From the NCBI GenBank assembly GCA_964017155.1, contig OZ024861.1:27830060-27894059 (forward strand): 64,000 nt of DNA, written 5' to 3'. This document shows positions 23,975 to 59,259 of this stretch, in pieces. This DNA is from Oasisia sp. SBJ-2009 (lineage: Eukaryota > Annelida > Polychaeta > Sabellida > Siboglinidae). The stretch's first letter is position 1. Every line of letters begins with the position of its first letter. Under the pieces are notes generated by a model. That model did no database searches. It worked only from the letters and a program-made list of their open reading frames with translations, and had not been told where the DNA came from. A program made the translations under genes and the position numbers.

Positions 23975-24275
23975 ATGCAGCAGTGCGCAGAGAACGAAGG
24001 TGGCACCACTGGTACTCACGACATAAGCACCGAATCGGGGCGGCGTTTCTCCGATGATTTTCACTCAAGCGGAACAAGTTTGTCATGGGATGCAGAGTTT
24101 CTCACCGTGACCCCCATAATCCATGCTGAGAATACCACGGATAAGTACAACCCTTCCCATGATCCTAAGGGTTGTCGGACTCAGAATCCGGGTCGTGTAC
24201 GTGTGACGTTTAGGGATGACGTAAAAAGTGAACTGCCAGAGAATGGATGGAAAGAAGGCAGGACGTGGAAAGGAG
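23975..24275 (+). CDS. Candidate alternative first coding exon (100 codons, phase 1)
   Basis: ATG at 23975 is preceded in frame by TGA (TGA-ACC-ACG-ATG). It opens a polar, probably disordered 100-residue segment beginning MQQCAENEGGTTGTHDIS and including SGRRFSDDFHSSGTSLSWD. The exon ends TGG-AAA-GGA-G|GTAGGA, a usable donor in phase 1. The acceptor at 58376 needs exactly one carried-over base, so this exon can splice in frame to the ankyrin exons. It is GC-richer than its AT-rich surroundings, as expected for coding or promoter DNA. No known domain is seen. Alternative donors exist (for example CGT|GTACGT), so the 3' end is provisional. Confidence 0.4.
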
Positions 24276-25211
24276 GTAGGACAAATTTCCAGTATTTGGT
24301 AACAGGATTGGGTTTGGTTATGACATAACAAGGTAATCCTAAATGTAATTCGTTACACCAGGAGCTGTAATTGTAATAGTGTAATAACATTGTTTCTGTC
24401 TAATTAACATGTGATTACAATCACATAAAGTGTTGAGTAACTTTTTTCCCTCCACTGGATGTTGCTTCATGGCTACATGTGACATTGATGTGACAATCAT
24501 GTGACATTGGTGTGACAATTCTGAAACATCTTCTACAAAAGGGACTGAAACTATAAACTGAGTTCATAAAAATCATCATCTTTTCATGATAATAATAAGA
24601 ATTCCATAAACTTGATATTAATACAAAACAGATGCATGCAGTAACTAAACCCAGTTCTGTTTGCCTGCTGTTATTAAGTTGATGTTACATTTGTAAATAA
24701 TGGGTGAATCTGACAGTCATGTAACATTTTTGTGCGGTGACTTCAGGAATCCACTAGTAGTGTTTTTTTTGCAAAATGCACCCCACCATCTAACCACATC
24801 CCCCTGCAAATTCAAGGTTTAATATCCTTCAGGTGCTTACAGCTACTTTGCCGGTAATCCAATCTGCTAAGCAGCTATAGAGGCCCCAAATTGTTAAGTA
24901 AGAGATTACACTAAACTCGAATCAAATAAGCTTACTAAAAGTTAATTACCACCATTAATTGCAGAACAAATAGTAGTCTTGGTGTATTTGTTTGTAATAG
25001 CCAATTAGTGATTAGCTTTTGATTAGCCTTAGTAAAGTAATTAGCAACATTGAGGTTGTTATGAAATTATTGTTATGTAATAATAGGAATGATTTTAGCT
25101 TGTGAGTGTGTTTTACTATAATCAAAATTATTTTGTTTGTTTGGTCTAGCTGGTTTGTAACAATTTTGCAATTTAGTTTTGTTGTATTATAAACACACAT
25201 GTACAGTCATA
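24276..25211. other. Putative intron sequence
   Basis: AT-rich DNA without exon-like segments. Confidence 0.4.
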
Positions 25212-25246
25212 CACACACACACACACGCATGCACGCACACGCACGA

Positions 25247-25278
<32 letters not shown>

Positions 25279-25332
25279 CACCACACACACCACACCACAC
25301 CACACCACACACACCACACCACACCACACACA
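25212..25332. repeat. (CA)n / (CACG)n / (CACAC)n compound microsatellite
   Basis: A CA run passes into ACGC tetranucleotides and then CCACA units. Confidence 0.97.
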
Positions 25333-28259
25333 TTTTGAATGGGGAAAAAATGTACAGACAAAAACATGACTGAAGCAATAATGCACCAGTGCCTGGCTGA
25401 AAGGTTAGTGATGTAATGTGGCTAGTAGTCACCAGATGGTGCCACCATCGTATAGCATTCCACTTGAAGTCATGGCTGCTGGTGACAGGACCAGGTAGAC
25501 AGACCACTGCCTCTTGTGACTTGAATTAATTCCAGCCTTCAGCCTCTTCTACTTATTGTGAAGTAGTTAAGAACATAAAATCATAAATGACAAAATGTTA
25601 TTGCTGCTGTTATGTTAATATCTATGCAAAATATATATAATTATATATATTTGTTTAGCATAAATTGTCTTGTTGTTGGTTAAATGTACCACTAACATGT
25701 TATTTGTTATGAATTTATACCAGTTATAACATCATCACGTTATTGTTTTCCCTTCAGAATTGAATTTTCTCCACTCAGATTTGATTTATATCCAGCGAAC
25801 AAAGCTGTTTAAACAATTTGATCAATCATGTTATCCCATTACAGATGACTGTGACTTAACTTTCATTTAACTGGTTTTGTTACCAAATACACCAGATGTC
25901 ACAATCAATTTGCATCACATTTTACTGCAGTTCAAGTTCCACTTGACAGGATGTAGTTAAAAATAATATTTTAATCTCTGTAATAGAGGGATTCTTCGGA
26001 TGTTTGTCTTATACAAATTTGTTTATCTGCCCACTCGGGTTCTTCTCTATAACGGAACTTTATCAGAAGATCAACTATTGTTCTCCGTAGTCAATTGCTT
26101 TGCACTTTTCTTTGTCAATTTCACCTCTGGATAATAATTGTGGGTTTCACCTTCAACGCAATCGTTCATTTCAATCTAATCAGTAACAGTATTTCCTCTG
26201 CGGGCTCTTTGAAGTCAATGACCTGTAGCTGATACAGATCAAGAGCTTTTGGGGCACATATATTCTGGGGTCAAACTGAAGGTGCAATTGTGTGAATCAC
26301 ACATCAATCTGTTGTTCATTTAACGTTGCTGTTTTTGACATTTTCCCCGGAGTTTTTCACCTGAGCCATCAGTCTAGGTAAGCCCAGGTGACACATAACG
26401 CTGTCATGGCCAGAGCACTGCTTAATCAGGTAGACTCTGTCGAGTCTCAGGTAAAACCTTTGATTACACAAGAATAGCTGGTGTTTAGTACTGCGTAGTA
26501 CTTGCTGGTGCCCAGTACACTCCTAACTCTCTCTGTGGTTTACCTGACACGTGTTCTCAAGTTAACAGACTGGTAAGCATGCGTGTGTCGTTGTCTTTCG
26601 AAGACAAACTTGTTTATTCCAACATTTTAGATAAGGTTTAATATAAATGTAATTTATGTAATATCTAAATTAAAATTGTTTAGAGACAAGCTTTACTTGA
26701 TGTATTCTAAAGATTTTTTTATTTCTGTATTTCAGATATGTTTTGTGATTAACATGTTTTAGAAACTTTTATCTGCAATTTTAAGAGGATGTTTGTTGTT
26801 ATCTTTGACTGTCTACCTGCTTGTTTGAAATGTTGAATGAACTTGGATAGGACCGTTAAATAGTTTAGGTTGGAAAGGGTGCTATATATGGCTACTCAGG
26901 AAGGGTGGATTATCTTGGATATGATACAGGTCTTGTCTTTGTGTTGCAATATGGTTGTGAAAGGTACTTCTTCTGACCAAATAGTGGTCAAGCTGACCGC
27001 CGTCCACCATCCTGTGTGATTGTTGTATTGACTCAAAGGCACAAATGTATGTTCCACAGTTTATGGAGGCCAATTTAAAAATTGAGATAATTTATAATTT
27101 AAGCATGGTTGACACATTGAACAATTAAAATGTCCTTCACATCTTGACTGGAAGGAACATATCAATTGCCTTCTGTGATATTTGAATTAGGAAGTAGACA
27201 TTTGGAATACCACAGCAGTTGAGATTCGGTGTGAACTTCCAAACAAATGATGACTGAACTAAACATACAGCCATCCAGACTAATCCAATGTCTGTTTGGC
27301 AGTACATGTGTGTGTATCCTGGTAAGTTGGCTGGCTGGCAACGATTGCTGTGTCAGTAAACTCATTATGCAGGACCTGTAGTTGTCAGATGTAACTGGAA
27401 TGATATGGAAACTGCCATACTAGACTGGTGTCTGAATTAATGTTTTGGTATACATTAATTTGCAGACAGGATAGAAAAGTACAAGTCTTTGGATGATTGA
27501 TTACTGGATTGTGTTTGGTTCACTAAAGAAGTATAAACTTGGGGTGGTTGGTTATTAAAAATTAGCAATTCCATAAACATAACAGCTGTTATGCCATTTA
27601 GATTACCTTAATTTTTATTTTAACACACAATTCAAATGCATACAATAAAAAGCCACATGACACCTTAGCTAGGATTTACTAGTAAATGTATGTTTACTAT
27701 AGTTACCCATCTGGTTACAACCAACCACATAATCTCGGGTGACTACAAAAAACATGCAACAGACATCAGTATAATTTGTCACAATTATTGGTGACGATTG
27801 TAGTATTTGACCCCAGCCCAGCTATCTCCTTAGCCAAGCTGTCACCAATGCACATAAAAACCTAGGATGTAGTTAAACCCTTGGGCCAATAAGACCAGAA
27901 TGTCCTGGCTTTTGTCATGTCAGTTCTTGTATCTTTAATGTCGATCACGTAGGAAACCAAATTTGGGCTGTTGACAATAGCTGGCATGTGAGGCAGGACA
28001 AATTGTAGATTTAACAAGATTTAGCAAGATGGTTATCCGAAAGAACAATATCTGCATGACATGTGAACAGGACTCTGTGACTTATCACATGGCCAATGAA
28101 TGTAACATATTTTTCGTTCCCAGCCCGTACTTGTCCAGTGGTGATTCTGTGCAGTAGATGTCTTCTTTTCCTTGACGTCTCCAATCACTACTATAATAAC
28201 AAGTAGTCACTCACAAATGTGAATTGTAACAATCTACCCATCCTCGTGCTGGTTACGTT
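25333..28259. other. Gene-free stretch / putative intron
   Basis: About 2.9 kb of AT-rich DNA with only short frames. I see no exon with matching splice signals and no recognisable repeat copy. Confidence 0.45.
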
Positions 28260-28696
28260 GTCGCGCTTACATTTTTCCGGTCATTATAAACTTTCCGATT
28301 GACATTTCTGCGCATGCGTGATAAATGTAAAATCATCAATGTCCATTGTGGGCTGTTCGTTAACTCTCCTGTGATGATTACTGTGAAGAGTTGCTTAAAA
28401 TGTTGTTCAATACAATAAAATATTATGTTTGTTTAAATCACTGTCACGGATTATGGCGCACTACAGTCATGTGATTTACGCTTGCTATCAAAACATACCT
28501 CAAAACTTGTTTGCCTCATGTTAATTTGTGACAAATAACTTTGCAGAGAGGTTATATACATCCTAATGAACAGCCCATATTATTTATACCATATATGCTT
28601 TGTCATTTCACTGCACATTGATGATTTTAAATTTATTGCGCATGCACAGAAATGTCAATCGGAACGTTTATAACGCCGGAAAAATGTAAGCGCGAC
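28260..28696. mobile_element. MITE family A, copy 2
   Basis: This has the same structure as the copy at 4803-5244: it begins GTCGCGCTTACATTTTTCCGG and ends CCGGAAAAATGTAAGCGCGAC. The TIRs are better preserved here, with TTCTGCGCATGCGTGATAAA mirrored by TTATTGCGCATGCACAGAAA. The internal sequence aligns along its whole length (GTGAAGAGTTGCTTAAAAT, CATACCTCAAAACTTGTTTG). It codes for nothing. Confidence 0.88.
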
Positions 28697-29212
28697 ACCG
28701 TCAGCACCGGGCCGTAGTACCCCTGGCTGGTTGCTTTGCAGAACTCTGAACTTATAAGCTCAGCCAATGAAATCACTAACCATGAGTGTGGTTCGCCTGT
28801 GATCACATGAAATAACTTGTTGATTTCAACCACTTGATGCTTGTGTTACATGTCATGTTTGGGATGTAGACGCAAGTAATAAAAACTTATTAGGCGAACG
28901 GTTCATTATACAACTGTACTGCAATTTCCAGAAATTGTTTATCCATCTTCAAATTGGGGCGGGTATGTGAACTATTCTCACGGATGATACAGTCGTGACT
29001 GACTAACTCACAACTCATCTAACTTCCATACTTTGCATAAGGGATCTATCTGCCTGTGCCCGGCCTAGTTGTGCATGGCAAACAGCCCTGTCTTGAGAGG
29101 ATGCAACGATCTATTTAGTGACACTAAAATAATGTTTAAAAAGAATCACCTCACACATAAGTAATGAAAATATAAAAAAGAAAGAAATATTTATTCCTCT
29201 GTTATGATAAGA

Positions 29213-29336
29213 GATACGATACGATACGATACGATACGATACGATACGATACGATACGATACGATACGATACGATACGATACGATACGATACGATACGAT
29301 ACGATACGATACGATACGATACGATACGATACGATA
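29213..29336. repeat. (GATAC)n pentanucleotide microsatellite
   Basis: About 25 perfect units; all frames are open (RYDTI / YRIVS peptides) and are artefacts. Confidence 0.98.
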
Positions 29337-29507
29337 AATGGACAAGAAGATGTGAAGTAACATTAGTGAAGGAACATTGCAAATTGGATATCAGAAATTA
29401 TTCATGCTCAGATAGGGCAAAATTGAATTGATCAATACTGATTATCTGCTGATTAATAATGGGTGCATTAGCAGTGTGGATGTGTGTTAAAATGATGTTG
29501 ACACATG

Positions 29508-29580
29508 CATGTAACACACCTGTATAACACACCTTTATAACACACCTTTATATCACACCTGTATAACACACCTGTATATT
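29508..29580 (+). repeat. 14-bp tandem repeat, about 5 units
   Basis: AACACACCT(G/T)TATA is repeated, with small changes, in tandem. Confidence 0.85.
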
Positions 29581-30097
29581 GTTACCATGGTTGTGACATT
29601 CCATGCTGTTCCGTGGAAAGATATAGTCATTCAAAAAAGTCACGGTAGGGAAATGGTTAGCAAAGATAGATGGATAAATGGACAGTTTATTTTTGTAAAT
29701 CATAAAAACAAATAAACAAACATAATCAGCAAATATAACAATAAATGATATAATATATGATTCTAGGTTAACAGAGGAGCCAATTAAGGCTATAGCCAGT
29801 GAATTGAAAGAATAATGATAGGAGAGGATGAGTACATAAATAAAGACAACCAACAGCTGTCACCCCAGCACAATAGCTGTATAAACAATACAATACTAAA
29901 TTAACGCATAGAATAAGGATTACATTTCTGAAGTTGATTCGATTTGAGAAATTTAAAAACAGTAATGTTAAGTAATTAATGTAGACATAAATAATATTGC
30001 AGACATGTTACACATTTGTTACAGCTGTTTTATTCAAATACTGACTAGTACTTAAATATTTGTTTCTAACGTTGCAGTCTTGTAATTGAGTCTGATC

Positions 30098-30118
30098 AAA
30101 ATACTTGAGCATCATAAA

Positions 30119-30193
<75 letters not shown>

Positions 30194-30207
30194 TCATATA
30201 TATACAG

Positions 30208-30255
<48 letters not shown>

Positions 30256-30408
30256 CATGATTATAGGATGATATGTATATATCATATATATACATGTATA
30301 TATATATCATATATATATATATTATAAAATTATGTTATATGTGAAATATATATATACATTATATAAAATAATTTTATATAGTTTATAAAATCATGTTATA
30401 TATATATA

Positions 30409-30446
<38 letters not shown>

Positions 30447-30470
30447 GATTTTATGATGCTCAAGTACTTT
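30098..30470. repeat. (AT)n block bounded by a 24-bp inverted repeat
   Basis: ACTTGAGCATCATAAAATC at about 30103 and its complement GATTTTATGATGCTCAAGT at 30447 enclose about 320 bp of mostly TA dinucleotides, with only one mismatch over 24 bp. The whole unit is a near-perfect long hairpin. Confidence 0.9.
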
Positions 30471-30872
30471 ATAACAAACACATTACATCTGCTATGCCCT
30501 GGTCAGACGCCTCAGGTAGTTAGTTGGTGTGCAGTGCCTCTACCTGTGACTCCTTTGATCTTGTCACCAATCAGACACCACCCTCCAGGTATTATTATAA
30601 TGTCAATTATGTTGACTGTGTCACACTTTATGACACTGAAGTTCTGACCACATCAGCTGATAAGTGTGTGGCTCTCACACCCACATTTTGTCCGAGACAG
30701 CTGAGAAGCGACAAGTCTTTACCCAATGTGCGCTATGGCTGTCATTACTGAGGTAGAGACATCAACACCACTCTTGACTCTGAAACCGAATCTGTAATGA
30801 TATCAAACCCCTCCATTGCCCCAGACTCTATTTACTGACTCAACGCAATTAGCCAGAGACAGGGAAAGTCAA

Positions 30873-31280
30873 TTACAGACTCAACAACAATGACGTTGTG
30901 GTGTGAGTGAGTTTGAAGATTTGACATTCTTGGTCGTAAGTGCTGTGGTATAGAGGCTTTGGGGTGTGGATTGTAATTTGTAAAGATTTGTTTGGGTCTG
31001 ATGTAGTCGGGATGTAGACTTTGGCAGTGACAGGGAGTGTGCTTGAAAGGGGTGCCGTTGTTGGGGTAAAGAGATTCGCTGGAGCGCGACTGATGGACAT
31101 ACATGGGTGGCTGCTCCGGTCCGTTTGGGATCCGTTTGTGCCAGCCAGAGACATAGCAGTTCTATTATTGTTCGTCGTCGCTCGGCTTTGAAAACGAACC
31201 AGGACGCACGGGTTTTTTCTTGACGAGAACACAGCATGATGTCATGCCTGCATCGGGGCACAGTCTGCGTCATGGGGCGT
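30873..31280 (-). other. Stretch open in three minus-strand frames, possible exon
   Basis: All three minus-strand frames stay open over roughly 90-130 codons because the strand is poor in T-initial stop codons. One frame (GWHKRIPNGPEQPP..., then MYVHQSRSSESLYPNNGTPF) has the most protein-like composition. It is preceded by TAATAG and I find no convincing donor or acceptor. No domain is recognised. It may be part of a CpG-richer regulatory region for the plus-strand gene. Confidence 0.2.
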
Positions 31281-31299
31281 CACGCTGCTAGTGGCAGTG

Positions 31300-33777
31300 T
31301 CAACTGAAATGATCATCCTGTGAACTTTGGAATCAGGTGTGTGTGTGTGCGATAGGGTCGTGGGTTGCTCAGGTGATAATTGGAAATATGTAAATGTGCT
31401 GTAGACGTGTGATCAATGTTGTGTGTACGGGAATGTTGTACAGTCATGGGTTAGGTAAAAGGGTGACTCGGTAAAAGAGTGTGTGTGTCTGTGTGTTGTC
31501 CAGTGAGACACGCTCATGTGTACTCGGGTTATTTACGTTCGTGCCTGTGAATCTGGTTTGTTCGATCACACCTTCGTTGTGACCTGACTGGCATTTCGTC
31601 ACGACTGCTGGCGGTCTGCCATCTTGTGCACACTGGATTATCTGTTAACCGGATTATCTCTGGTTCATTGAGTAAACGTAGAGATCGGACCGCGGATCTG
31701 TCTAATCACGTTGCTTGGCCATTGTGTTTGCATATTTGTATAGCACATTATATTGGGCCAGCAATGACGGTGCTATTAGACACACAGAGTGCCGCACTCA
31801 CATTGCGTGTGTCGGCCAAACGGAACCATGAAATGGGACTCGAGGTGTTGGGTCAATAACCTATGGTAAGACGTCTCGGTTTCTTTACTTAGTATTGTGG
31901 TGAGATAAGACATTGTTTACTATAAATTATAGTAACATGTGAGGTTTACTGCCACTGCATTCTCTGTCACGGTGGCTTCTTTCACAGTGATTCATAGATC
32001 ACAAAACACAACCGTGAAGCAAGGAGGTATATCCACTGTGTAGTGTACATAAACATTCAGATAAACAATCTTCTGTAGTCAGATTGAGTCAGTTGGTTTA
32101 TATTTATTCAGCAATATGTGTAGAGTATTTTGATTCTAATTGCAGCACCAGAAGTGCTGAAAGAACTTGAGAGATATTTGCATAATCTACTGAAGAGAAA
32201 GCGCAAGAGTGACCACAGAATGACCACAGAATGACCACAGAATGGCAGGCCGGGATTGGCGACAGCTTCCTGTAAGCTCTTGGAGAAAATAATTAAAGTG
32301 AGGTGAAAGCAATTCTGCCAGGGGATTAATGCATTCAGTGACGTAATTGATTGGAAGCAAGCACACACAAGCCACCGAGGACACCAGCTGTCACTCATTA
32401 CTCTGGCATGAGAGTATGGAAGGATTAACGGTGAATTGCAAGTATCCGAGAGTGTTGGGGATTGTTGACCCACTCAGAGAAGAATACAGCGAATTGTTAG
32501 TGCTATATGCAGACTGAGTTAAACGCAATATCACCCAAAGTGAGAAGTAGTTGCTTATGCTACATGTGCCTTTCAACAAAGGAGATTGGTTTCGATAGAC
32601 ATTGTGAATTCGAGTGGAAACGAATGTACTCAACCGACCGTCGCAGAAGAATGACAATATTGACTTCGGCGTGTGTGGATTGCAAAATACAGTTGCTTGG
32701 AGTGACAGGGTAGAAGCCGGGGCACCTGGTTGTCATTCAAGGCACGCACAGGACATTGTTAAATTGTTGACGCCCATAAACGGTAATAGCCTTCGCCGAC
32801 ACGTGGAATGGCAGCGACTGTAAAAGTGGGCACCATTTGATCTCTACGGCTTCGCCCCATTCAGCATCAGAGTTGTTCTGACTACAGATTGAAAAGACAA
32901 ACCCTGCAGGAATGAATCAGTGAAAAAAGCTTTCACAACGAGTCCGTCGGCTTCACCTGGCATTGGTCAGTCCGAATCCGTATTGTTGCCCAAACGGCAG
33001 GTGTGATTCCCCAGGTGTGGTCGCTCATGCGTGACGCCGGCTGCCTCAGGTACCGAATTCAAAAGCGTTCGTTATCAGCGCTGGGCTGGCCGCACGGTGC
33101 TTTGCAGTGACACTTTCAACACGGCGGTTCGATACACGCGTGTGGACTGGACGGGTGACTTTCTCAGCAGAAGACTGGACTGGTGACGGCCATCTGTCTT
33201 CACATTGCGTTGTTCTTTGTCGCTGGTTTCTGCGAATGACAGTCGTGGTTATCTGGAACTGCTGAAGGGCGTGGACCAACGTCACTTTGTGTGGATATGC
33301 TGTGTTGACTCAAGGTATGGTGGATACTGTGTTTGTCTGCAGATAAGTCTATTTATGATCAGTGGGAGTGTTTGTTGTCGGAGCTGTGGAGGGAGTGATA
33401 CAAGGAGACAGGATTGTTTGTGTGGCATTCTGGTGGCAGCAGATCACACGGTCATGTTCAGTTGACACAATCTGTAGACAACTGCGGAATTACCGAAGCC
33501 GTCAACATCATAAGGGGTAACTCAGGGACAACACTCGGCTATCTGATTAATTAACAAGATTGATTGACACCGTTAATGAGCTCGTTATGACAATGAAGAA
33601 TGAGTTGCAACTATGAATGATGGGCATCACATGGTCAGGAACAGTGTCGTGTAAATTGCGTCTTAATAATTGAGTCAACTATCCAGTTAAGTCGACAAGT
33701 GTACCAAACTGATACTTACAAATGTGTGCATGGATTGATTGAACAAAGAAAGTAACTGAATTTAAATCTTTCCGCAG
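31300..33777 (+). promoter_or_regulatory. CpG-richer region upstream of the large exon; candidate 5' UTR exons
   Basis: Two donor-like sites end plausible untranslated exons: CTATG|GTAAGA at 31865 and CTCAAG|GTATGG at 33314. Either could splice to the acceptor TTAAATCTTTCCGCAG at 33777, which lies 22 bases before the ATG of the large exon. The region is richer in CpG than the flanking kilobases. GACCACAGAAT is repeated three times in tandem at about 32209-32244. No core promoter motif can be fixed. Confidence 0.35.
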
Positions 33778-33799
33778 TACAATCTGTGGATAAACGAGG

Positions 33800-36398
33800 A
33801 TGTCCCAGGATCAGCCCAAGTGGGGCTTCCCAAAGTTCTGGAAATCGGCCAAGCGTGACAACCACGGTTCCGGGTCGACGCCGCGACCGGAGGAAAAACA
33901 CAGGTTCCATCTGAGGAAGAGCTCGTCACAGTCCAGTTTGTTCCAGACAAAACGGAACAGTCGGTCAACCGTGAAGACCGTCACAGATGACCGGAGCAAT
34001 GATCCGGAATGGGTGCCCTTTCACCGGAGTGTAAGTCCAAGGTTAAGGTCACCTGACTTGATGACGGAGATGAAAGGGAGGCTGGCTGCGAGATCACCAA
34101 TGGCAGAAGAGTGGAAGATGGCGAAAGACCAGAGCATGCTGGGAAATGGCAGGACTTTCGATCAGCAAATAACACCGGAAAAAATGCGGTTGTTGGAGAG
34201 CCAAAGGATGCTGGGTAATTACCGAGCGTTGAATAATCAGCAGTCATTCCAGAACGGGCGGAACGAGGCTTGTGACACCGCTGACCACTGGTCAAGTCAG
34301 AACTTTGACAACGTGACTGGGTCACCTAATTCAGGTGAAGTCACTTATAGAGATGGACAACAAGTTTCGGTTTCCAGAAGATTGTTTGACGAGAAGAACA
34401 GAATGCAGGAATCCCGTCCTCGTAGCTGTGAACACGTGCCCATGTCAACAGTCGTACAAGGCGTTGATGGACAGAACATCTCAGTGAAGCAGTGGATGGA
34501 TGGAGGTGATGATAATCCATGGAACATGCACAGACCATCAGCTACTGGGGTGACTGATGGCAGAATGGATACCCCAGGAAAACAGGGAACAAAACAACAT
34601 CAGCTACAAGCCAATGACGGTCTCCATTTGTCTCCTGGAATGGACAGACGAGAAACCACAAGGAGCCGTGAGACTGAAGCAATCAGTGACCGATTCAAAC
34701 TGACCGGCCGTTCAGCGAAAACCGCTGACCACCTGGACAGAAACGGAGCCGTAATGGGGCACCTTCCACCCCAGCAGGATACCATGGAGACAATCAATTA
34801 CACCCAGGTACATCACGCGAACGGTCAGCACTGGTCAAACAAATTGGCGTTGATTGACCACTACAAGAATGGAGAAGCGGTCACTGGTAATGACCACGGT
34901 CCACTGCTCACTGAGCAGGGCAACCAAGGAGGTTCCGAGATGTATCCTGTGGTCACTCAGAAGATGTTTGCCAACTCGCCGGGTCAAAACACCGAAAAGC
35001 AAATTGGAAACAACCGCATGGAGACTGACTACAGAAGCAGTGGACATAATCGGTGTCGTCCAGATGGTGCTGACCGTCCAATGCCCCGCCAGATGGTGTA
35101 TGTGGCGACACATGGTGACGTAATTGGCGACCGTGGGCAGGGCATTGTCCATGGAGATGTTTTGCCGGGCCAGCGTGTCGAGACTGACACACACAAGATG
35201 GATATCTACGGGAGAGGGCGCGGACAGTTACCGTGGGTGATGCAGGCTGACACTGTGGATTGCCGAGAGTTCCAGAATCATGGATTCCACCAACGTTATC
35301 TAGACAGAAGTCCACAGGTGAATAAGACGTATCAGAGAACCAGACCAGACACTACTCAGTATGACACTGAGAGGCCATCTCATGGCAATCCGATGTCTCA
35401 GTCACAAGCTGTACAATTCAATGACAGAATCCCCACAAGAACCATGCCATCCTATCATAAGGTCACTCAGAATCAAGACCCATCAGATAACTACGATGAG
35501 CAGGCCAGAATTGAGGACAGCATCAGAGTGGCTAACTTCCAGCAACAACCTGTGCCCGGTTTCAGACAAGCGGCGATCACGAGCAACAAAAGTCACGTTC
35601 AACAGACCCTACCCGGATATAAACCTCTGGAGACAAAATGCCGATCGCCCCAGGAGACTTGCACCATCTCCACGACATCGCAAGATTCTGGATTTGAGCA
35701 GCGGATGCAGAACTACCTCGCCGACTCACAGAATCAGTCGCTGATGAGCTCAATTCTGGAAACCAGTGTCAGCACGCCGCCTGCGTTCATGTCTGGGGAC
35801 AGCGGTGACGTGAAGGACTTCAGCCATCAGCGGAGAACACCAGGAGTACTACAGACTCACCAACTGACGAGGATCCCGTTGCAAGTCAACAGCGATTGGA
35901 AGCACCACAAGAACCAGGATGTAACCGACTCGAGCAGTGAAGCGAGCGACAGCGACGGCTCCAGCGATCTGTTTGTGCCAAAATCGCAGTCGCACTATGA
36001 CCTCACCAAGGCCTACAGACGTAGAGCAATGAGTGCGTCGCTCCGAGCGAAGTCACACAACCAAGTTTGGCCGAGGCGCGATGATATATCGGCGTCAGAC
36101 GGAGAAGGGCAAAGTATGGCCAAGTCGAGCCTTGTTTTACTGCGATCATCCGAGTTCGTATCGGCTGTCAATATGGCACATCAACATCACGAGCATCATC
36201 GAAAGCATCATCACCATCGCCACGGTGACGCGGCTGTAAAACAAGAGCAGATTCGGAAGTTCAAGTCGGCTGAGAATGTCGTTCCCGCGAGACAAGTGAA
36301 GCGGAAATCCGTCCAGCGAGTGACTGAAGAAGACAGGGAGCGACGGACGAGGTCTGACCACAGAGACATGGAGCATCAGGTGGACGTCTCTTTCGATG
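33800..36398 (+). CDS. Large disordered-protein exon, probable alternative N-terminus of the ankyrin-repeat protein
   Basis: A good acceptor (TCTTTCCGCAG, ending 33777) precedes the ATG at 33800. The frame then stays open for 866 codons to TTC-GAT-G|GTAAGTTG, a near-consensus donor in phase 1. Read past the donor it would stop at 36518. The protein starts MSQDQPKWGFPKFWKSAKRD and is hydrophilic. It has Arg/Ser-rich stretches (HLRKSSSQSSLFQTKRNSRS), two MLGN motifs, an acidic Ser run (DSSSEASDSDGSSDLF), a His cluster (HQHHEHHRKHHHHRHGD) and a basic end. I recognise no folded domain. Phase 1 matches the 58376 acceptor, so splicing to the ankyrin exons is possible in frame. It could instead be the start of a separate gene whose later exons I failed to see. 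Confidence 0.75.
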
Positions 36399-44479: not shown

Positions 44480-44511
<32 letters not shown>

Positions 44512-44513
44512 TA

Positions 44514-44606
<93 letters not shown>
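44480..44606. repeat. (AT)n microsatellite
   Basis: Long TA tracts with two TTATATA interruptions. Confidence 0.97.
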
Positions 44607-44607
<1 letters not shown>

Positions 44608-47804: not shown

Positions 47805-47970
47805 TCTCTTCCCAGTGGACAGTTGCCCAGTGGACCATACCAAGTTTATTGATTACATGTCATGATTTTATTACATTTACAAATTTTGTGTATCTCTGGG
47901 CAACTGTCCACATTTTTATTTGACCTCTGGACGAATGTCCACTGGGCGAATGGATGTCCACTAGGGGCGG
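47805..47970. repeat. Minisatellite-bearing element, solo form
   Basis: On the left, CCCAGTGGACAGTTGCCCAGTGGAC is the inverted form of the 15-bp unit. On the right, GGGCAACTGTCCAC and GAATGTCCACTGGGCGAATG are the direct form. The sequence between (GATTTTATTACATTTA..., ATTTTTATTTGACC) aligns with the unique sequence just left of the large array (GATATTATTACATTTA..., ATTTGTATTTGACC at 18.21-18.28 kb). This is a dispersed element, of which the 18.3-kb array may be an amplified copy. Confidence 0.65.
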
Positions 47971-48334
47971 GAAAACATGGGTGGGAGTAATTTAGTGGGA
48001 GGAAGACTTTAAAATAATGCAACACTAACCACAAAAAGATGATGTGTCCAAAGTCAATGGAATTGTATTGCATTTCAGTAAGTGCTACTAATAGGAATAT
48101 ATTTTTTTTCTCCTCTCACTGTGGCTGCCGTAGGACGACACCCACAAACACACCTGTATTTCAAGTAAGGCAGCATTTCCCATCTAGAGCAGGGAATCTA
48201 TTATCTTCAGAGGGGTAATTTGGAGGGTGTCAGATCCACTTACAACATAATCCTCTGAGTCATTAGGGGGCTTATGTTGAGGGGGTCCACTGTGAGAGGC
48301 AGGGGTAATTCAGGTGGGCTATGGTAATTTAGGG

Positions 48335-48440
48335 TTGGAGGTTTAAAGTTCTAGTTGTAATATAATTTGCAGTATGGTGGTCCTTGTGGGTTTAAAATTC
48401 TAGATGAAATGTAATTTGCAGTATGGTGCATCTTGTACAA
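48335..48440 (+). repeat. Tandem duplication, unit of about 60 bp
   Basis: GGTTTAAAGTTCTAGTTGTAATATAATTTGCAGTATGGTG is followed by a similar GGTTTAAAATTCTAGATGAAATGTAATTTGCAGTATGGTG. Confidence 0.8.
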
Positions 48441-49990
48441 AGCATGTGTAATTGTGTATCCTCAAATATTGAAAGATGTATTTTAAATTAACTTTTTAAT
48501 TAATAGTTATAAATAATTTATATTAAAAGGAACTGCTCGTTAATTGTTCAAAATAATAATTGTGTAATAACTAATTTGTAGTACTATATTAAATTAATCT
48601 GAAAAAACTTTCTGGTATGCGTTATAACTATATTTCTGTTGTTTACATGTATGTCTGAAACATGTAAATTATTTATTACTTGTTGTCAATTTTACTGCAA
48701 CTTTAACCTTAGTCTGATGAATATCCATTGTTTTCTAATGTGTTTGTGGACACTGTTAAAAAGGTAAAATATTGTGAATATTACGATAGCTCCACTATGA
48801 ATTAATCTAACAAACATATTGACTAACACGTGACATTGTATGCAATAAATAATTAAACCATGACAAATACACCCTGATCACAATCCAATTAATTGGGTGT
48901 ACTGGTAATTTTAGGCAGCACTTAATTATAATGTTGGCTGTTGTAATTATATTCTGATAAACGAAACCCAACATGCACTTTAATACTAAATATATAAAAC
49001 ACATTTTAAAATTGTTATTGTAATTGTTATATGTAGTTTCACGAATAGTTGTTAATTGCAGTAAATCATTAATTGATATAAGCTTAATTTATGAAAACTT
49101 GACAATTAATATATGTATTGAATAAACGGGTGGATAAATTTATAATCACATTTTATACAGGGCATGTGTGTGGATGATCAAGATTAGATTGCGTAACTAG
49201 CAAATCTTTGATATTGGATCTATGTAGAAATGGTTCTAAGGTTTCCTGCTTTTAAAACGTCTCCAATTGTTCAGTTTGATGCGCAGGTTGACAGGATAAT
49301 GTCCTTGCCATCTGGCATACAATAACCATAACATCTGTCTTGTTTACGACAGGCTCCATAAAAAACGAGCTGTTTCCATGGTTACTAGCAGCTAGTGCAT
49401 CTAACAGGCCACTTCAGGTTAAATAGACTTTTCCTGAATGTTATCTCTTTGATGGTAGTAGTTATAATTTGCAATACCCAGAGTCACAGCTCTGGCACAA
49501 GAGTGATGTCTTTCATAAGTTATGATGTGTCCATTTTGTTGTGAGTGTTAAAAATAACTGCCACAAATGTAGGGTGAATGTGATGATAATAATAGACTGC
49601 CTGGGGGGGGTGACAGGCTATTGTGAGGGCACAGGCCACAGGTAGCTGCTAGCTAGGCCATCTGCCTGTCTTCACACAAGGGGTATTATCTTCCCCCATG
49701 ATTGGCTCAGCCTAATTACCCTGTAAACAGTGCCCAGCCCAGCCCTCAGCAGGCAGCTCAATGCTGGTTGGCCGGTTTGAATTTTCAAACTGTCATCATG
49801 GTGTTGTGTCATGTAGTGACCAGCCCAGCTCTAGCCAGGGGTCAAGCCTAGTGGGCTCATTGGGTTATGTAACCAGCTGACTTGACCAGGCCAGTACCAG
49901 TGGTCAAGGAGTGAGGGAGTGGATTTTATCAGAGTGCATGCAGGAAGTGTGGTGATTGTGGATGGTTTTATCTGGATGTTTTTACCTGTG
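48441..49990. other. Putative intron sequence
   Basis: AT-rich, then GC-richer after about 49.6 kb. No exon is recognised. Confidence 0.45.
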
Positions 49991-50825
49991 TACAAGGTGT
50001 GTACCCGGAACACACTTGGAGGATGAACTTGTGGACTTTGAACACACCTGGATCGTGAAGTTGTGGAGCGTCAAAACTGTGTACTTTTAACACACTTTGA
50101 CAGCAAAGTTGTGTACTTGCTGGCAGACTCTGCTGTTGAATGAGATTCCTCATTGGCTTCATTGAATCACTTCTCAGTTGTTTGAAGCTTTGGCTCAATC
50201 AACTGGTCAAGCAGATAGTGAGTGACCACTGTGCAGTGCAGACTGGACTTTTAACCTGAGTGACCGCTTGTGGATTTAGCGGCAGGCGAAGTTTATCTTT
50301 TTACCTGTGGCCTTGTGAAACAGGTGGTTGACTCAGACTGACCTCATCACAAGGACTCAATCCGATCACGCCCACTGCATCCTGGATGTTGTGGTTCTAC
50401 TGTGGAATGTGGACTGACTTAGTCTGGTATCACAGCAGAGACATACGTGATACATGATTCGAGTATGATCGTCAATGTTATAAACGAGTTTCATGATCAG
50501 GTGACGTGTAACTGCATGTCATTCCGACGTCAACAATCACAAATGCTCGCGTCAACGAACAGGATTTGCCTAATCCGATTTTAACTTTGGCCAGGATTGA
50601 CATCATGAAATCACGCCCGTGTTGAGGATGCTTTTAATTATTGATTCATAAATTAACGATGTGAACTTCTGATTCAATCGTCACTATGATTCAACTTTAT
50701 GCAGACTTACGGCTATGTTATTAGATATATTATCTTGTTATCTATGAGACCAAAGTGAGTCACACAACGGACATCGGATACAGATGTATTTTGCAATTGG
50801 AGACAGCTAGGATTGTCGACTTAGA
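49991..50825 (+). promoter_or_regulatory. Region upstream of the 50826 exon; candidate promoter / 5' UTR
   Basis: At 49995-50120 there are about three diverged copies of a 35-40 bp unit (GTG(T/G)AC-TT-AACACAC-T-GA). Further right the sequence is CpG-richer (50.3-50.6 kb). An in-frame TAG six codons before the 50826 ATG closes the upstream frame, so translation should begin there. No core promoter element is certain. Confidence 0.3.
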
Positions 50826-50958
50826 ATGATGAAGTATGATCAGAACGCAGTCTTGACACGTCAGCTTTCGACAATGGGAATCAAACAGAACTTTCTCGAT
50901 GACGATTTGTCAGGATACTCGACAAAGTCGTCGATTGATCTTGACGCCACAGAAACTA
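50826..50958 (+). CDS. ANKRD6-like gene, candidate first coding exon (44 codons, phase 1)
   Basis: ATG-ATG at 50826 follows an in-frame TAG and opens MMKYDQNAVLTRQLSTMGIK, then a short acidic/serine segment (FLDDDLSGYSTKSSIDLD). The exon ends GAA-ACT-A|GTAAGTAG, a near-consensus donor in phase 1. Joined to the acceptor at 58376, the split codon becomes ATG and the frame runs on into the ankyrin exons. Of the candidate first exons, this has the best balance of start context, closed upstream frame and donor, so I favour it as a main start. No domain is visible in it. That it is used is inference from phase and order. Confidence 0.55.
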
Positions 50959-53900
50959 GTAAGTAGCACTTCATGTGTATATAATTTGTGGTGATTCGTA
51001 TAGTTTAGATTACTACGTTGACGGTTGACACCTGTGAGGCAATACCACTGCATGGCTTCTTCGAGTCCGTTTCTTCATCCATTTGCTTTGTCAGCTGTTG
51101 TATATTTATGTGGTCTGTTTGATTGATACCTTGTACATAGAATTAAGGCCTTTGTAGAATTAAGGGCAAAGATATACGTGAGGTGATCTCAAAAATACAG
51201 TGAGTCATGATGATTTGTTATAGTGATTGCGATAACAAATATACATGTTCGTACAAAATGGTTACATGTGCGTTAGGAAATTCGCCAAACAAATGGAACC
51301 ATGGGAAGGTTACACACAGAGTTGACATTATGTCATTATATTGATTGATGTATTTCGGTTATGCACTTTTGGGTGATAGTAATTTTTGATGTTATCTTTA
51401 ATCCATTAGTCTTTGAAAAACTACCCTCTTGCTTATCACATGACAGTTTCCTGCAGTTTCATCTTCTTGGGCAATAACCCCCAGTTGATGCCCCCCTAGC
51501 CACTGTGGTCACTCAGTCACCCCCATTCATCACGCATAAAACAACAGCCCTTTGACATTCCACACCCTTCCAGCAGGGTAGAAACCCCATGGTTTTGGCA
51601 GTTACTTTGAAACTGGAGTGTGTGACTGTTGGGTCAGCCATTGTGGGCTGGATGAGGTGTAAATGGCTTTGGAATGGGGTGCCATTTACCACCCCTTTGT
51701 AGGGTTGTGCAATGTGTTAATGTCAACTGCCCACAGCCAGATTAAATCAGCCTGACTCTGGGGGGGGGGGTATAATGGCACTGGGCTCTGTGACACTGTT
51801 ATGCATAATAATTATCTGTTGACACTGATCTATGTACTTCAGTTAATGAAGATCTCTTCTTGTGTATGGATACTGGATTGCAGACATTGACATAACACAG
51901 TTCTGGTTGAGAAAAACTCAAACAAATTAAAAAAACATGAACAAAAATTGTTTTAACAACCCTTCTAAAATGCACATGGGCAAAGTTTTGAATTTTCACA
52001 TTCGACTGTTGCTCTGCACACAGGTAACCATAATTATTATGATTATGAAGAAGAGTGCTATTAACTTTTGCATTAGCCCAACCATAAACAACTATTTTGT
52101 ATTTGATAGATTCTTCAGAGATTCTTGTTATAATTTGTTTCTGCATTTTATGACCTTTGGTGAACTCTTGCTCTGTGTAATCTTTAACATTAGAAAAATT
52201 GCAATAAGAACAAAAGCTTAACACATAAAAAATAAGAATAATGAAATGTTCACTTGTAAAAAAAACCTGTAATATTCCGATGAAATATTCAGATGAAGGT
52301 TTGTTAAGAGACATTGATCACATTGAAACCTTTTTATTAAAAAATTATGGGCGATAATAAAACGACAACAAAAATAATGTTTATTTCTACACTTTGACAT
52401 GTAAATAAATTTGAGGAATGAATCTTTTTATTTCACAAATAAGGTTAAAAAAAGGTACAATTAAAAAAAATTATATAATATATATGTATAATAAAATCTT
52501 ACATATATGTATAGATATACTTGAAATCATATTTAATATATATATTTGATAAATAACAAAATAAAAAGACATTTAAATAAATAAGATATAGTGTATATAC
52601 AATTTATACATATAGAAGGTATTTATGCTGATGATTATCGTTGATGATTATCTGTTTTAAAACCTTTACTAACTGGTAAATGTTATGAATGTGTGAATTG
52701 TATATTTAACTATATATAAATAACTCTATGTGGTTCCCTATGTGAGGTCCATGTTATGAAAGAGCAGATATGATCATGGCTTATCAATGCCACCATTTCA
52801 TGCCACGATAAAGTATAGCTCCAGGTAATTTTTGTAACTAGTTTGTATATTATGTTTTCATCACGCAAAATTTGACAGCTTGACAGTTGGCCGGAAGTTG
52901 GAAGTGCTCTCTGTCAATAGAGACATTGTTGCATAATTGGAACGGATGTTGGCCCAAAAAGTCCGATTGATTAGATGGTGTTGAAACAATGCTAGACTGT
53001 TGTAAATAGTCCAAATATTACGGTCGTACTGAATGGTTTCATGCCCCCACATTCATACTCTGTGGCTTACTGTACTCAGTAACCCAGAGGTTTTAGATGA
53101 CTTTGTTGTTAATGCAACCATTATTTCTTACTTAAACCTCCTTAGTTTGCTTTGGACTGAATGAAAGCTTCTGCATCTTTCTCTGTTTGTCTTTTTAACT
53201 TCAACCTAGATGGTCTCCATCTTCTTTCATTTATTGTTTTTTTATCTTCAACGATTTTAGAGAGATCTGTTTTTTCATTGATGATTCCTGTCTAAAGGGG
53301 CGGATAATCGTTGTTAGATAACTGACAATTGTTGCAACTCCTCCTTAAGATTGTCTTACATCACTGAATCATATTTGTTGTTGTCTTAAATGAATCAAAA
53401 CAAGAGTTTTTGCTAGATGAGGTAACCAACATCACACATTACAGGAGTAGGAAAATATTGTCTTTTGTTGTGATTTTTGTTTTTTATTAATAAAAATAAA
53501 AACAATCTTAGTTTAACATAAATATCATATAAAATAAAATAAATATACTATTGGAAATAAAATAATGTGTAATCCTGCAAGTTAGCTGGAAACTATGACA
53601 TGCAACAACGACTTTAACTCAGTGTCTTTAATCAGGGTCAATGTCTCTAACCAGGGGTACAGTTAGGATAGTTGTGTCCACTCCCCCCCCCCCCGCCAAT
53701 TACCCCAATTACCACATGTGTGATGATCACACGTTCTGATCACTCCTAGTGTTACTAGTATTTACCAAATGTTTATCACAGATATGTCACTCTTGAGATA
53801 TGTGTCAAATAAACTGTTGTAAATGTTAAAATACATCATGTCACATTCATGTAGTGATTAAGCATTTGCCAAATGATTTTTAGCGTTGTCTTATCTGAGG

Positions 53901-55250
53901 ATCAAACACCTTTGGGCAATACACAGATTTGTTGCCAACGTCAACTTCAGAACATGCGTCCCTCAGGTAGGTTAAGTTTTTTAGTTTAGGCTGTATTGTT
54001 GGTGTCATATCCTACCCTGACCCACTTGTAAAGTGACCCACCCCAGTGATCTGATTCCATCTCAACTCCTGGGGTAGTTTACTAGAGATTATCCCCAGCC
54101 GGAAACGTAGTGCCCTACTTTCTGATGGTATGTGATTGATGAATTGCTCCTTGTTATGATTAAGTCTTCAAAACAACAAATTTGCTTTACTTTTACTTCA
54201 ACGTTTTAAAGTTAGGAATTAATCTTTTACAAAATACAGTGAACCAAGAACTCAAAACGTTATTCTGAACTGTTTAAAGAGATTAGAACTCATTTAAACA
54301 ATGTTTGGGGAATACAATATATTTTTGAATATAGCAACATGTTTTTTAAAGGATTTTTTAATGTGCCATAAATAGAGTCATAAATTAATTGTAATATTAA
54401 ATTTGTTTTATTTTGTAAAAATAATATATTAATTAAATGATACTAGAAAAATTGTACTTTAACTTAGCTGTATTCATTAGCCTGATACTTACTTAGTTAT
54501 TATTGTATGTATATCATGCATATAACAAACTGCTCAGAAGTAAAAAAAAATTGCCAAACCACAAACACCAGATAACCATGTACATTCAAGATTTGGAAAG
54601 GTATTTACAACACATATCTGAAATATAAATTCAAGGAAAGCATTTAAATTCAGTAGAGAGGTTTACATGCATTACAACATCAACAGGAAACAAGTGCTTG
54701 AGAAGCACATTTTCATATTTCTGAGTGACAAGGGACCTCTGAACAAGTGAATAAATCAACCCAATAAAAAGTGTTTACAATATTGCAACTAATCACTGTA
54801 AATGAGTTACATTTAATACTTTTTCAATTTCTCAGGCTTTTGCACTATACTAGAACAATTTAAAATACCGGGTACACAACAAGGTTTTATGTAAGAAATT
54901 TTAAAGTTCAAATATGGTGGAAATATGTGTGAAATGTGCACAATACATCACGTTTCACATAATATTCTATGGACATTTCATATTAACCATCACATACTTA
55001 AGATACGTATGTAACATAAATATTAATTATTTATGAATTTACCCAAAATACCCACCAGAAACTAAATAAACGTGCACACAGTGTTGACTCAAGTTCAGTC
55101 GGTGCCATAAGGCCGCTAGTCACCAGTTTTATCACGACATCATATCTATGTCACATGGCCATGTATTTCTAAATGCATCAACATTTGTTTGTTTGTAAGC
55201 CTCCACAGTTTGGCACACTGTCATCATTGACAATACGATCTGAGTCGCAT
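50959..55250. other. Putative intron sequence
   Basis: AT-rich DNA. A 171-codon minus-strand frame at 51799-52314 has no domain or signals. Poly-G (51760) and poly-C (53683) runs are present. No exon is recognised. Confidence 0.45.
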
Positions 55251-55708
55251 CAGTGCAGTGGCTTCACAGCCAAAGGACGGTCCACAAATTACAGTGATTT
55301 AATATCGTCGCGGTTGACCTGTCGCGTGGCAAGACGCTGGTTTCAGTGAATTCTGCCCTCGGCAAAGATAACAGCACAGTTATGCTCGAAAAGTCACAGT
55401 TCATACACATTTCTAAGGAACCGCTATGAGACGTCACAATATTTGCTTTCAGCGATTGGCCAGTGACTTTCCCCTGCCTACCCGCAGAATCACTCGTCTG
55501 TGAATGCTGACAATTGACGTGTTTCATCGGTCGCGCTCCACTGAATTTGGCAGCGTTCCATTTCAGGTGTGAACGCACGGATTCGCGTGTTACACCCGTT
55601 GTGGCTGCACCGTACCGGCTGCAGGATCGTCTGTTATTTCGTAACGCAGAGTCGTCTGAAACTGACGGTGGTTTAGAAGTTGGAACTGGATGGATCTGTT
55701 GGTCACGC
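55251..55708 (+). promoter_or_regulatory. CpG-rich candidate promoter
   Basis: A sharp rise in GC and CpG against the AT-rich flanks ends at a well-placed ATG (CACGC-ATG-GCC). The minus strand is open here for 148 codons, most likely because of base composition. Confidence 0.4.
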
Positions 55709-55765
55709 ATGGCCGACCCTGATGGGAAGGAGATAGTTTACGAAGTCGTTTACAAAGTGCAGCAG
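55709..55765 (+). CDS. Candidate alternative first coding exon (19 codons, phase 0)
   Basis: ATG at 55709 in good context opens MADPDGKEIVYEVVYKVQQ and meets CAGCAG|GTGTGT, an acceptable donor. The frame is also open upstream to an ATG at 55514, so a longer N-terminus is possible. Phase 0 does not fit the 58376 exon, where it would read TGA. It does fit the ankyrin exon at 59161 exactly, which would skip the N-terminal cap. The CpG-rich setting supports a promoter here. Confidence 0.4.
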
Positions 55766-58375
55766 GTGTGTGCGTGATAAGTGTGGACAAACAACACTTA
55801 ACCTGTTGTGGAGAGACTTGACAAAGGAACGCTGTTTATTTCGCTGTGTAACAGGATGTTTGGATAGCTCGAGGAGTCAGGCGACTAGGTAGGTTTTGTA
55901 TTCGTACACTCTAGGAGTTGGGTCTGTTTTATTTAGCTGCTTAGATTATTATATACCTACAAGATGTACATGTTTTGCCACATTTTGCCTGGTTGATAAT
56001 GGTAGAACATTTGGGTGTTTATTCGTCACAGCAATCAGACTGTAAAAGCATGCACACAAGAAAATGTTGTGCATTTTATTTCCTTGCGTGGTGACTGGTT
56101 AGACTGTACTATTGAATTTGATGATTTCGGAGAATATGAGTAACAGTTCTTTAGGACAGATTGAGAAGATGACGTGACAAGTTCAGTTGATATTAGCTTC
56201 TATCCCCCTTCTCAAGTCCCTGCCTTTGTGTAGGTTTCAATGGGACTTGTCCATGCCCCACTTCATCAGAGGGACTTAAACATCAGAGGGACTTAAACAC
56301 TAGTAGTCGAATGCCCTGTGCACAATGACGAAGGGTGTGTGGCTATGACGACAGCATCTTCTCTCTGTGGTAACGTGTAATCACGACATGGTTTATATTT
56401 CAGGTTTAGTTTGTCTGAGCCTTTGTGGTGACAGAAACCCCACACCTGTTTCTGTGCTTAGCTAGTCCATAACGCCACGCGTAGATGTTGTCCTGCTGTT
56501 TTCATCCGCGGAAGTTTCTTTATTTCGTCTCTGCCTGTCTGGTAGGAAGCACCGTCTGGTAGGGCGGGTGGAAGGTATTTGTGACAGATGGCTTGCTTGT
56601 CATTGTCCGGGCTTCAGTTGTCACTTACTTGCAAGTCAGGGTGCTAAATTATGACAAATGTTGGACGTTGAGATTTCTCAGCTGTCCCTGCAAGTATGTG
56701 TTGACAGAAAACATTTGAAGATTTATCTTTTTTACTGTTCACATGTTTACGATTGACATTTCATGCTGGTCACAAGATCAATCACTGAGATAGTTTTGAT
56801 GTGCTATTCAGTTGGGGATACTAAGTATTTTGTTTCCATAATTATGTATGTGTATAGTTTTAAAATTGTGTTGTTGGTGGATGAGAACAACTAACGGTTA
56901 TCACATTGTGAACTATCAAACTAATCTGGATTCTAACCTTCACTGGTGCTGGTTGAAAGCTTTGTTAATTTGACTCGTCAGATTGCCTGATTAGTTCACT
57001 TAGTTACATTGGGGGATAACTGGTTGTAGACAGTGGTGTATATTAATTATTAATGAGCAAGTTGTCTTTGTACAGTGAGTACAGCATTGCTGAATTCTTC
57101 TTATAGAACTAGAATTGTGTTTTAAAGAATTGGACAGATAGAGGTTGAATAGAGGTACTTTTTGATCCGTCTTAGTAACATCAAGACAGAAAACAATGCT
57201 TCTGAGTTGGTGTTAGTGTAGTAGACAGGCTGTGCTCGTATCCAGAACACTCAGGATGACACCACTCAAACACTGGCATATGGTTCCTAACTAACCGTAC
57301 ACTCAGCTGTATGGTGTGAATTGTGTTATGGATTATGTCCATATTATTCTAGGTTATGTTGACAGTGTTGCACATGATTTATGCTGAGCTCATATACTGT
57401 TGGAATAAAGTAAAACGCCAAATAAATTAAAACACAAGCATGGGTTAATATTTGTAGTTTTACTTTATAATGGCCAATTGTAACATGTCAACACTCGACA
57501 GCTTTATCAGAGACACCTCATTTATAGGCAGGTTTTATTTTATTTGACATTTGTCAGTTGGGAAAGAAGTTTGTAATTCAAACATCTTCGTACATAGTTT
57601 CCATTGCATCAGGGCTTGTTCGCATACAGCTGTTTTGGCAAGTTGATTTACTGTTCTTTTATAACAACAGTCTGGCACAATAGGCTGTCTGTGGTACATT
57701 ATAAATGGAGTGATCTCATGGTTGTTGAATAGACGTTCATGATAAATAATATTAAGACCCTGGGAAGTGGAATTGACATCTGTTATAACTAGCAAAGCAG
57801 CAACTAACATAGATCATAGTATTGTACAAAGATTGTTTTATCATAGAATGTTACGACGAATCCAAATTTCCATTGTCCAAATAACTCTGAATAAATCAGT
57901 TTTAAACCCAGTTTGATGATATAACATTATAAAAACAGACAACACAGGTACCTGGTACTAGTGTTTGCCGTCAACACTATGATAAAATGTACTTCTAGTT
58001 TATTAAAATATATTAGTTAACCAGTTTGCATAGGACTGGCTTAGATTATAATATCCTACAGAACTTAACCTGCATGAAGAGCCAATGATAGTGACAAAAT
58101 CTGTTTGTAATTATTTAGACATAGTTGACATTGACAGAATATGATTCAAATTTTACACTGCTTGTCTTGTAGTTTTGTTAGAAACACTGATAATAATAAA
58201 TCAATGTACATTTTTAGATCCATTACACATTTTTGTGTCTGTTTATTTCAACAAATAAACATTTTAGGAATCCTGAGTGGCTTTGTTAAAAACACAACGA
58301 GTGGATCACTGCAATAATAACAATGCAACACATGTGTTTGGATAAAGATGTCTAAGTGTAGCTGTCTGTTCACAG
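55766..58375. other. Putative intron with a worn SINE copy (about 56880-57150)
   Basis: At about 56990-57140, AGTTCACTTAGTTACATTGGGGGATAACTGGTTGTAGACAGTGG...TGCTGAATTCTTCTTATAGAAC follows the core/tail order of the 22.9-kb SINE with many changes. No exon is seen. Confidence 0.5.
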
Positions 58376-58509
58376 TGACCATGGCCACAGACATGTCTGC
58401 TTTCGGGGGCTGCCAGCCCGCTGACCGCTTGCGACTGGCGTCCAGCAAAGGACAGATGGACAAGGTCAAGGAACTGGTCTTAGCCGGGACGTCCTTCCAA
58501 CCAGACAAG
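58376..58509 (+). CDS. ANKRD6: ANKRD6-like exon: N-terminal cap of the ankyrin domain
   Basis: The acceptor CTGTCTGTTCACAG ends at 58375; the exon reads TG-ACC-ATG-GCC... and ends CCA-GAC-AAG|GTTAGT at 58509, phase 0. It needs one base from upstream (phase 1), and also holds its own ATG at 58381. The peptide ADRLRLASSKGQMDKVKELV is the second half of a cap ankyrin repeat. It resembles the start of the ANKRD6/Diversin ankyrin domain (a D-R-L...A...KGQ pattern, from memory of the family). Diversin is a cytoplasmic scaffold binding Dishevelled, casein kinase I and axin in Wnt/planar-polarity signalling. The ANKRD6 assignment rests on three ankyrin exons only; another ankyrin-repeat protein is possible. 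Confidence 0.75.
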
Positions 58510-58651
58510 GTTAGTGTTGTTTGTAAATAATAGTAGAGTCACGCGAAACATGACAATAAAGAGTAACACAGTTTGTCCAGTAACAGGAAGAGAGTAACAG
58601 TTGGTTGCGAAATAAATAGCAAAAAAACATAATTCATTTTGCTACATAGTG

Positions 58652-59024
58652 TAGGGTCCGTACGGGGCCTTGAAAGTCTAGAAAAGCCTGGAATTTGATT
58701 GAACCAAATTCAAGGCCTTGAAATCCTTGACATTTCAAAGTAGTCTTGAAAAGTCTTGAATTTAATTGTGATCAATAAAATATTGTTTTGACTCAATTGT
58801 TGTGACGAATAACAACCAGAAATGCCTATGCACAAGAATAACTTGTGTTCACATTGGGCGATGGTCATTTCATTGTGGTTGGCGCCATTGTTTTCTTAGT
58901 TGAGTAAAAAAATTAATGTTAACTTAATTTACTGAGCTTAAAAGTACATAAGTTGTTTTTCAAATAGCCTTGAAAAGTCTTGAATAGCCTTGAATTTCAA
59001 ATATCAAGGTGTGTACGGACCCTG
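58652..59024. mobile_element. hAT-like MITE in intron, 373 bp
   Basis: It starts TAGGGTCCGTACGGGGCCTTGAAAGT and ends with the inverted form ACCTTGATATTTG (complement) ... GTACGGACCCTG. CCTTGAA motifs are repeated inside both ends. The flanks ACATAGTG and ATAGTAGG may be a worn 8-bp duplication (shared ATAGT). It has no coding capacity. Confidence 0.75.
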
Positions 59025-59160
59025 ATAGTAGGGTAAAAGAATACCATACATTTATTAGGAATATAACATACTTATGGATGCTTTACGTGACCAAATTTAG
59101 TGATGCTATATGTGGCCATATTCATTGATGCTGTATGTGGCTATTTTACTGACATTGCAG

Positions 59161-59259
59161 GAAGGTCGAACAGCTATCCACTATGCCGCCGTGAATGGTT
59201 ACGCCAACATAGTGAGCCTCCTGGCGGCAGAAGGGTGCGATATCGACAGTCAAGACAAC
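59161..59259 (+). CDS. ANKRD6: ANKRD6-like exon: one complete ankyrin repeat
   Basis: The acceptor TGACATTGCAG ends at 59160 and the donor AAC|GTAAGT starts at 59260. The exon is 99 bp, exactly 33 codons, phase 0 at both ends: the classic one-repeat-per-exon layout. It encodes EGRTAIHYAAVNGYANIVSL followed by LAAEGCDIDSQDN. The G-R-T-x-[IL]-H-x-AA start, G-Y/H-x-x-[IV]-V helix and GCDID-x-QD end follow the ankyrin consensus and match the second repeat of ANKRD6 well. Because it is symmetrical it can be skipped or joined to any phase-0 upstream exon. Confidence 0.93.

Follow-up and report, generated by a model that had tools for sequence, protein, structure and literature searches.

The window analyzed here, a 64-kb stretch of DNA with 39% GC, carries at its right end an ankyrin-repeat core of three exons, and upstream of it, on the same plus strand, several ATG exons that end at usable donors. 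It is probable that these elements form one plus-strand gene with interchangeable first coding exons. The preliminary description had assigned this role to five exons; it is best supported for those starting at 23975, 33800, and 50826, which have relatives at the protein level, whereas codon usage is what speaks for the exon at 17120, and the one at 55709 found no support.

The ankyrin-repeat core

The first core exon (58376-58509, plus strand) encodes the N-terminal cap, is entered in phase 1 and left in phase 0 (acceptor score 4.2, donor 4.0), and is 98% identical to two ORFs, P0010 and P0011. Each of the two following plus-strand exons, 59161-59259 (acceptor 0.9, donor 3.2) and 63716-63814 (acceptor 5.3, weak donor, -0.1), has 99 nt, phase 0 on both sides, and encodes one repeat; the window ends after the latter. 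When joined, the three exons match the Pfam family Ank_2 at 6e-21, confirming that an ankyrin core lies beside the five exons, and among solved structures they retrieve 470 distinct ankyrin chain sequences at E up to 0.001.

Vertebrate ANKRD6/diversin, the functional counterpart of Drosophila Diego, continues with several more repeats, and its long C-terminal part interacts with casein kinase I. Against residues 11-106 of a provisional human ANKRD6 sequence, the core gives a gap-free alignment with 43 of 96 residues identical (45%) and 86.3 bits, as compared with 55.5 bits in the next repeat register of the same protein. Based on a provisional reference and on ANKRD6 as the one family compared, this match is a lead to the ANKRD6 family rather than a proof of membership. 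Inversin has a long ankyrin block with IQ motifs, and it is possible that the core belongs to inversin instead, as the parts that would tell the two apart lie beyond the window. In PMC4818920, inversin (INVS), like the core an ankyrin-repeat protein, is grouped with Dgo and ANKRD6, mentioned with an IQ domain, and listed from two molluscs; the same paper states that Dgo can be replaced by ANKRD6 in Drosophila, though homology is not confidently demonstrable. A brachiopod with a diego/ankrd6/diversin orthologue is reported in PMC11414264.

The first core exon also contains a usable start of its own, ATG 58381, in the strong context GTGACCATGG, and translation from it may give a plain form of the protein lacking any N-terminal extension. 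The core frame is moreover open in the 5' direction through the acceptor at 58376 up to ATG 58348 (58348-58380, plus strand), and P0011 reads through upstream likewise, with MSKCRCLLTVT before MATDM; an intronic start at ATG 58348 is possible.

The candidate first coding exons

Re-reading of the sequence upheld the coordinates, frames, phases, and splice motifs reported for the five plus-strand exons. The exons 17120-17179, 23975-24275, 33800-36398, 50826-50958, and 55709-55765 have sizes of 60, 301, 2599, 133, and 57 nt and thus end in phases 0, 1, 1, 1, and 0, respectively. As had been claimed, the three phase-1 exons suit the acceptor at 58376, from which the joined frame is stop-free through 58376, 59161, and 63716, and the two phase-0 exons suit 59161 instead, since they run into stops if joined to 58376 and into none with 59161. 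The claim that four of the five have a stop or an acceptor close upstream also stands, the nearest in-frame stops being at -21 (17120), -9 (23975), -9 (33800), -18 (50826), and -201 nt (55709). In particular, the pattern of alternative first exons is seen at 23975, 33800, and 50826, three ATG exons with relatives, nearby upstream stops, and phase 1 throughout.

A phase match alone is weak evidence: of the 26 plus-strand ATG-to-donor candidates (donor scores of 3 or more, lengths of 55 or more, starts within 1300-58300, repeat arrays excluded), phases 0 and 1 account for 10 each and phase 2 for 6, and one start, 33800, takes up three of the rows through its alternative donors. Homology and codon usage, rather than phase, are what tell the candidates apart. 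The 50826 exon, with a donor score of 2.8, falls outside these 26, and the other four exons top the list by codon score, but the 33800 and 23975 exons had been part of the training set for that score. Positive scores were obtained for 7 of the 26 plus-strand rows (three of them start 33800) and, on the minus strand, which has 33 ATG-to-donor candidates, for 10 of the 15 rows listed (2.0 to 12.2). The suggestion that several first exons sit in CpG-richer islands proved weakly true: counted over the 600 bp surrounding each of the five ATGs, CpG ranks at percentiles 75.5 to 91.4 of the window, a modest enrichment that makes CpG islands weak evidence of promoters. Common ancestry of the five exons was considered and rejected, as none of the ten peptide-pair local alignments rose above its 300 shuffles (lowest fraction, 0.17).

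The largest candidate, 33800-36398 (plus strand, phase-1 donor GATG/GTAAGT), encodes 866 aa and has seven related ORFs aligned over 100% of the query at 42-100% identity; one is practically the window's own, and the others show 85, 55, 43, 43, 42, and 42%. Conservation is highest at residues 1-80, 601-680, and 721-840, and the protein begins with a conserved basic-aromatic stretch, K-W-x-F-P-K-F-W-K. Against the five relatives at no more than 55% identity, the 30 residues that lead up to the donor show 76 identical letters of 150, and past the donor the identity falls to 16 of 78 letters with gaps left out (0.08 if gaps count as differences). The G-K pair at the exon boundary, which a phase-1 GTAAR donor would encode, is kept in seven of seven sequences, the window's own copy counted. 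An in-frame TAA lies 9 nt upstream of ATG 33800 and an acceptor, TTTCCGCAG/T (score 2.5), ends at 33777; this makes 33800-36398 a first coding exon, which a noncoding leader probably precedes, and 33778-33799 (plus strand) is the putative spliced 5' leader, which would use this acceptor. The 866-aa piece is polar (9.9% Ser, 8.8% Arg, 8.4% Gln), has few order-promoting residues (0.19), and is probably unstructured. In Pfam, neither this peptide nor that of the 100-aa exon matched any family at E up to 1. A search for the DNA of relatives with alignment A1, in which own-genome records were possibly excluded, confirmed none among 50 pattern-matching stretches in genome contigs and 59 in viral sequences.

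The 23975 exon (23975-24275, plus strand, phase-1 donor GAG/GTAGGA) encodes 100 aa and has two related ORFs, P0008 (96% over 100% of the query) and P0009 (74% over 85%). The former sits on a contig of 706 bases and may come from the same species as the window; the latter is close over the first ~50 residues and then drifts. G-R stands at the expected donor in all three sequences, the window's own included, though the alignment is uncertain there. Similarly, the 44-aa exon 50826-50958 (plus strand, phase-1 donor ACTA/GTAAGT), whose true start is perhaps the second ATG, at 50829, has two relatives (72 and 67%), P0012 (E 6.5e-9) and P0013 (E 1.4e-4), and shares with both an invariant block of 17 residues, DDDLSGYSTKSSIDLDA. 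At its donor, S-K is present in three of three sequences, again counting the window's own, as a phase-1 GTAAR donor gives. Searches with either exon returned no more than two relatives each.

Codon usage was further compared with that of open stretches, using scores trained on the 866-aa exon only; the fractions of stretches that reach a given score are not probabilities, because open stretches overlap one another. The score of the 23975 exon was reached by none of 158 GC-matched stretches and none of 226 without GC matching, and that of the 50826 exon by 0.0066 of 1661 GC-matched stretches and 0.0601 of 6059 without matching. The 20-aa exon 17120-17179 (plus strand, phase 0, with no in-frame entry to 58376) scored 12.9, reached by 0.0008 of 5035 overlapping GC-matched stretches; among the candidate rows it scores 11.8, just under the minus-strand top of 12.2. 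Its codon usage is thus suggestive, and it is possible that this exon is coding, but it was picked from many candidates. In the case of the 19-aa exon 55709-55765 (plus strand, phase 0, good donor, 6.0), the score was reached by 0.0889 of 6973 GC-matched stretches, which is the null range, and its 3.8 among the candidate rows lies within the noise of the positive minus-strand rows. Perhaps it is a 5' leader exon.

One reading of the two phase-0 exons, put forward in the preliminary description and compatible with the single gene preferred here, has translation begin in them and the ankyrin cap lost through splicing to 59161. Both would join 59161 stop-free and 17120 is coding-like, but 55709 lacks coding character and phase 0 is as frequent as phase 1 among the candidates; we regard this reading as unlikely, phase being what suggests cap-losing isoforms through 59161. 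A more radical alternative holds that only the 58381 start yields ankyrin protein in quantity, the upstream exons serving mainly as 5' leaders and the 17120 and 55709 frames ending at a TGA formed at 58376. Although the context of ATG 58381 and the stops met by the phase-0 exons at 58376 agree with it, leaders would not keep protein relatives such as those of the 866-aa, 44-aa, and 100-aa exons, and the codon usage of 17120 is coding-like, so that we give this alternative very little credence.

One gene or several

Relatives of different exons turn up on contigs of equal size. P0002 (866-aa exon) and P0011 (core exon) are both on contigs of 123935 bases, P0003 (866-aa exon) and P0012 (50826 exon) on contigs of 1077571 bases, and P0006 (866-aa exon) and P0013 (50826 exon) on contigs of 156554 bases. 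We read equal-sized contigs as the same contigs, which places a relative of the 866-aa exon once beside the core and twice beside the 50826 exon; co-location was judged here from sizes. P0001 to P0013 look like unspliced ORFs, and none of them reads from one exon into another; the splice junctions are therefore predicted ones.

These observations leave room for a different arrangement, in which the 866-aa exon, perhaps together with that at 23975, opens a separate plus-strand gene whose short exons were missed, and the ankyrin gene starts near 50.8 or 55.7 kb. Neighbouring distinct genes would share contigs as well, and the junctions of the preferred model are predicted. As for an unrelated gene structure between the 866-aa exon and the core, named in the preliminary description as the contrary outcome, the plus strand of 36.4-58.3 kb shows no internal-exon candidate above 9.9 bits outside repeats in a scan with little power for short exons, and of the 70 top-ranking codon segments listed, not one lies there on that strand. 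Over the whole window, the only plus-strand internal-exon candidates above 10.1 bits outside masked repeats were fragments of the 866-aa exon and the first core exon. The low power of the scan is evident from the core itself: the exon 59161-59259 scores 0.1 for codon usage, a value attained by 0.1203 of open stretches (0.2477 with GC matching), and would be missed, and 63716-63814 fails the donor cut. Since, in addition, all three phase-1 exons suit 58376, we consider two separate genes improbable, if the most serious competitor of the single gene.

Proposed isoforms and comparison with known scaffolds

Under the single-gene model, the window would contain, on the plus strand, the 5' half of an animal gene of ANKRD6/diversin type. 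Transcription would begin at three or more separate sites, each supplying an ATG exon that ends in phase 1 and would be spliced to 58376 past the other first exons. All products would share the ankyrin-repeat scaffold encoded downstream and would differ before the ankyrin cap, carrying 100 aa (from 23975), 866 aa (33800), 44 aa (50826), or nothing; in the plain form, a noncoding leader would be spliced to 58376 and translation would begin at 58381. The 866-aa piece may act as a flexible arm with a docking or membrane-targeting motif, changing the location of the scaffold. This arm would re-target the scaffold because diversin binds Dishevelled via its ankyrin repeats, as given in PMC12381922.

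We lean, by a small measure, toward the stronger statement that this animal lineage produces four or more versions of an ANKRD6/diversin-type polarity scaffold, distinguished solely by a conserved N-terminal module (in one version, the 866-aa disordered arm), and that promoter choice re-targets the scaffold to different sites. The arm is about as long as diversin itself. To our knowledge, no 866-aa N-terminal extension has been described for vertebrate ANKRD6; in contrast to ANKRD6/diversin, the gene in the window has three N-terminal coding exons with relatives preceding the cap. If such isoforms exist, one planar-polarity/Wnt ankyrin scaffold carries conserved targeting modules chosen by promoter, which suggests how a single gene of this kind serves several sites and yields defined peptides; vertebrate-guided annotation could miss such N-termini.

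A comparable organization is found in the dystrophin superfamily, where several first exons, known from transcripts, feed one common body, whereas the gene in the window is predicted from genomic evidence. Alternative promoters and different N-termini of that superfamily are described in PMC1790709. Among the papers searched, the sole match for ANKRD6 with "alternative first exon" concerns ankyrin-G, and none has ANKRD6 together with gastropod; diversin is absent among the matches listed with PMC1790709.

Several other features of the window were recorded. Searches found no Rfam family at gathering scores and no tRNA genes. On the minus strand, a 157-aa open frame (55264-55737), without a Pfam match, runs across the CpG-rich segment 55201-55900 opposite the 55709 candidate, and within it lies the top minus-strand internal-exon candidate (55482-55718, 25.1 bits). 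The left end (1-1300; 58% GC, CpG-rich) harbors, at 3-1274 on the minus strand, an open frame that encodes a G-protein-coupled receptor of the rhodopsin type (7tm_1, 9.8e-13) and runs off the window. Finally, two tandem arrays, 18278-18746 (15-bp unit, 31.3 copies) and 19654-21266 (21-bp unit, 76.8 copies), have units that are multiples of three and several open frames, and are likely noncoding repeats.
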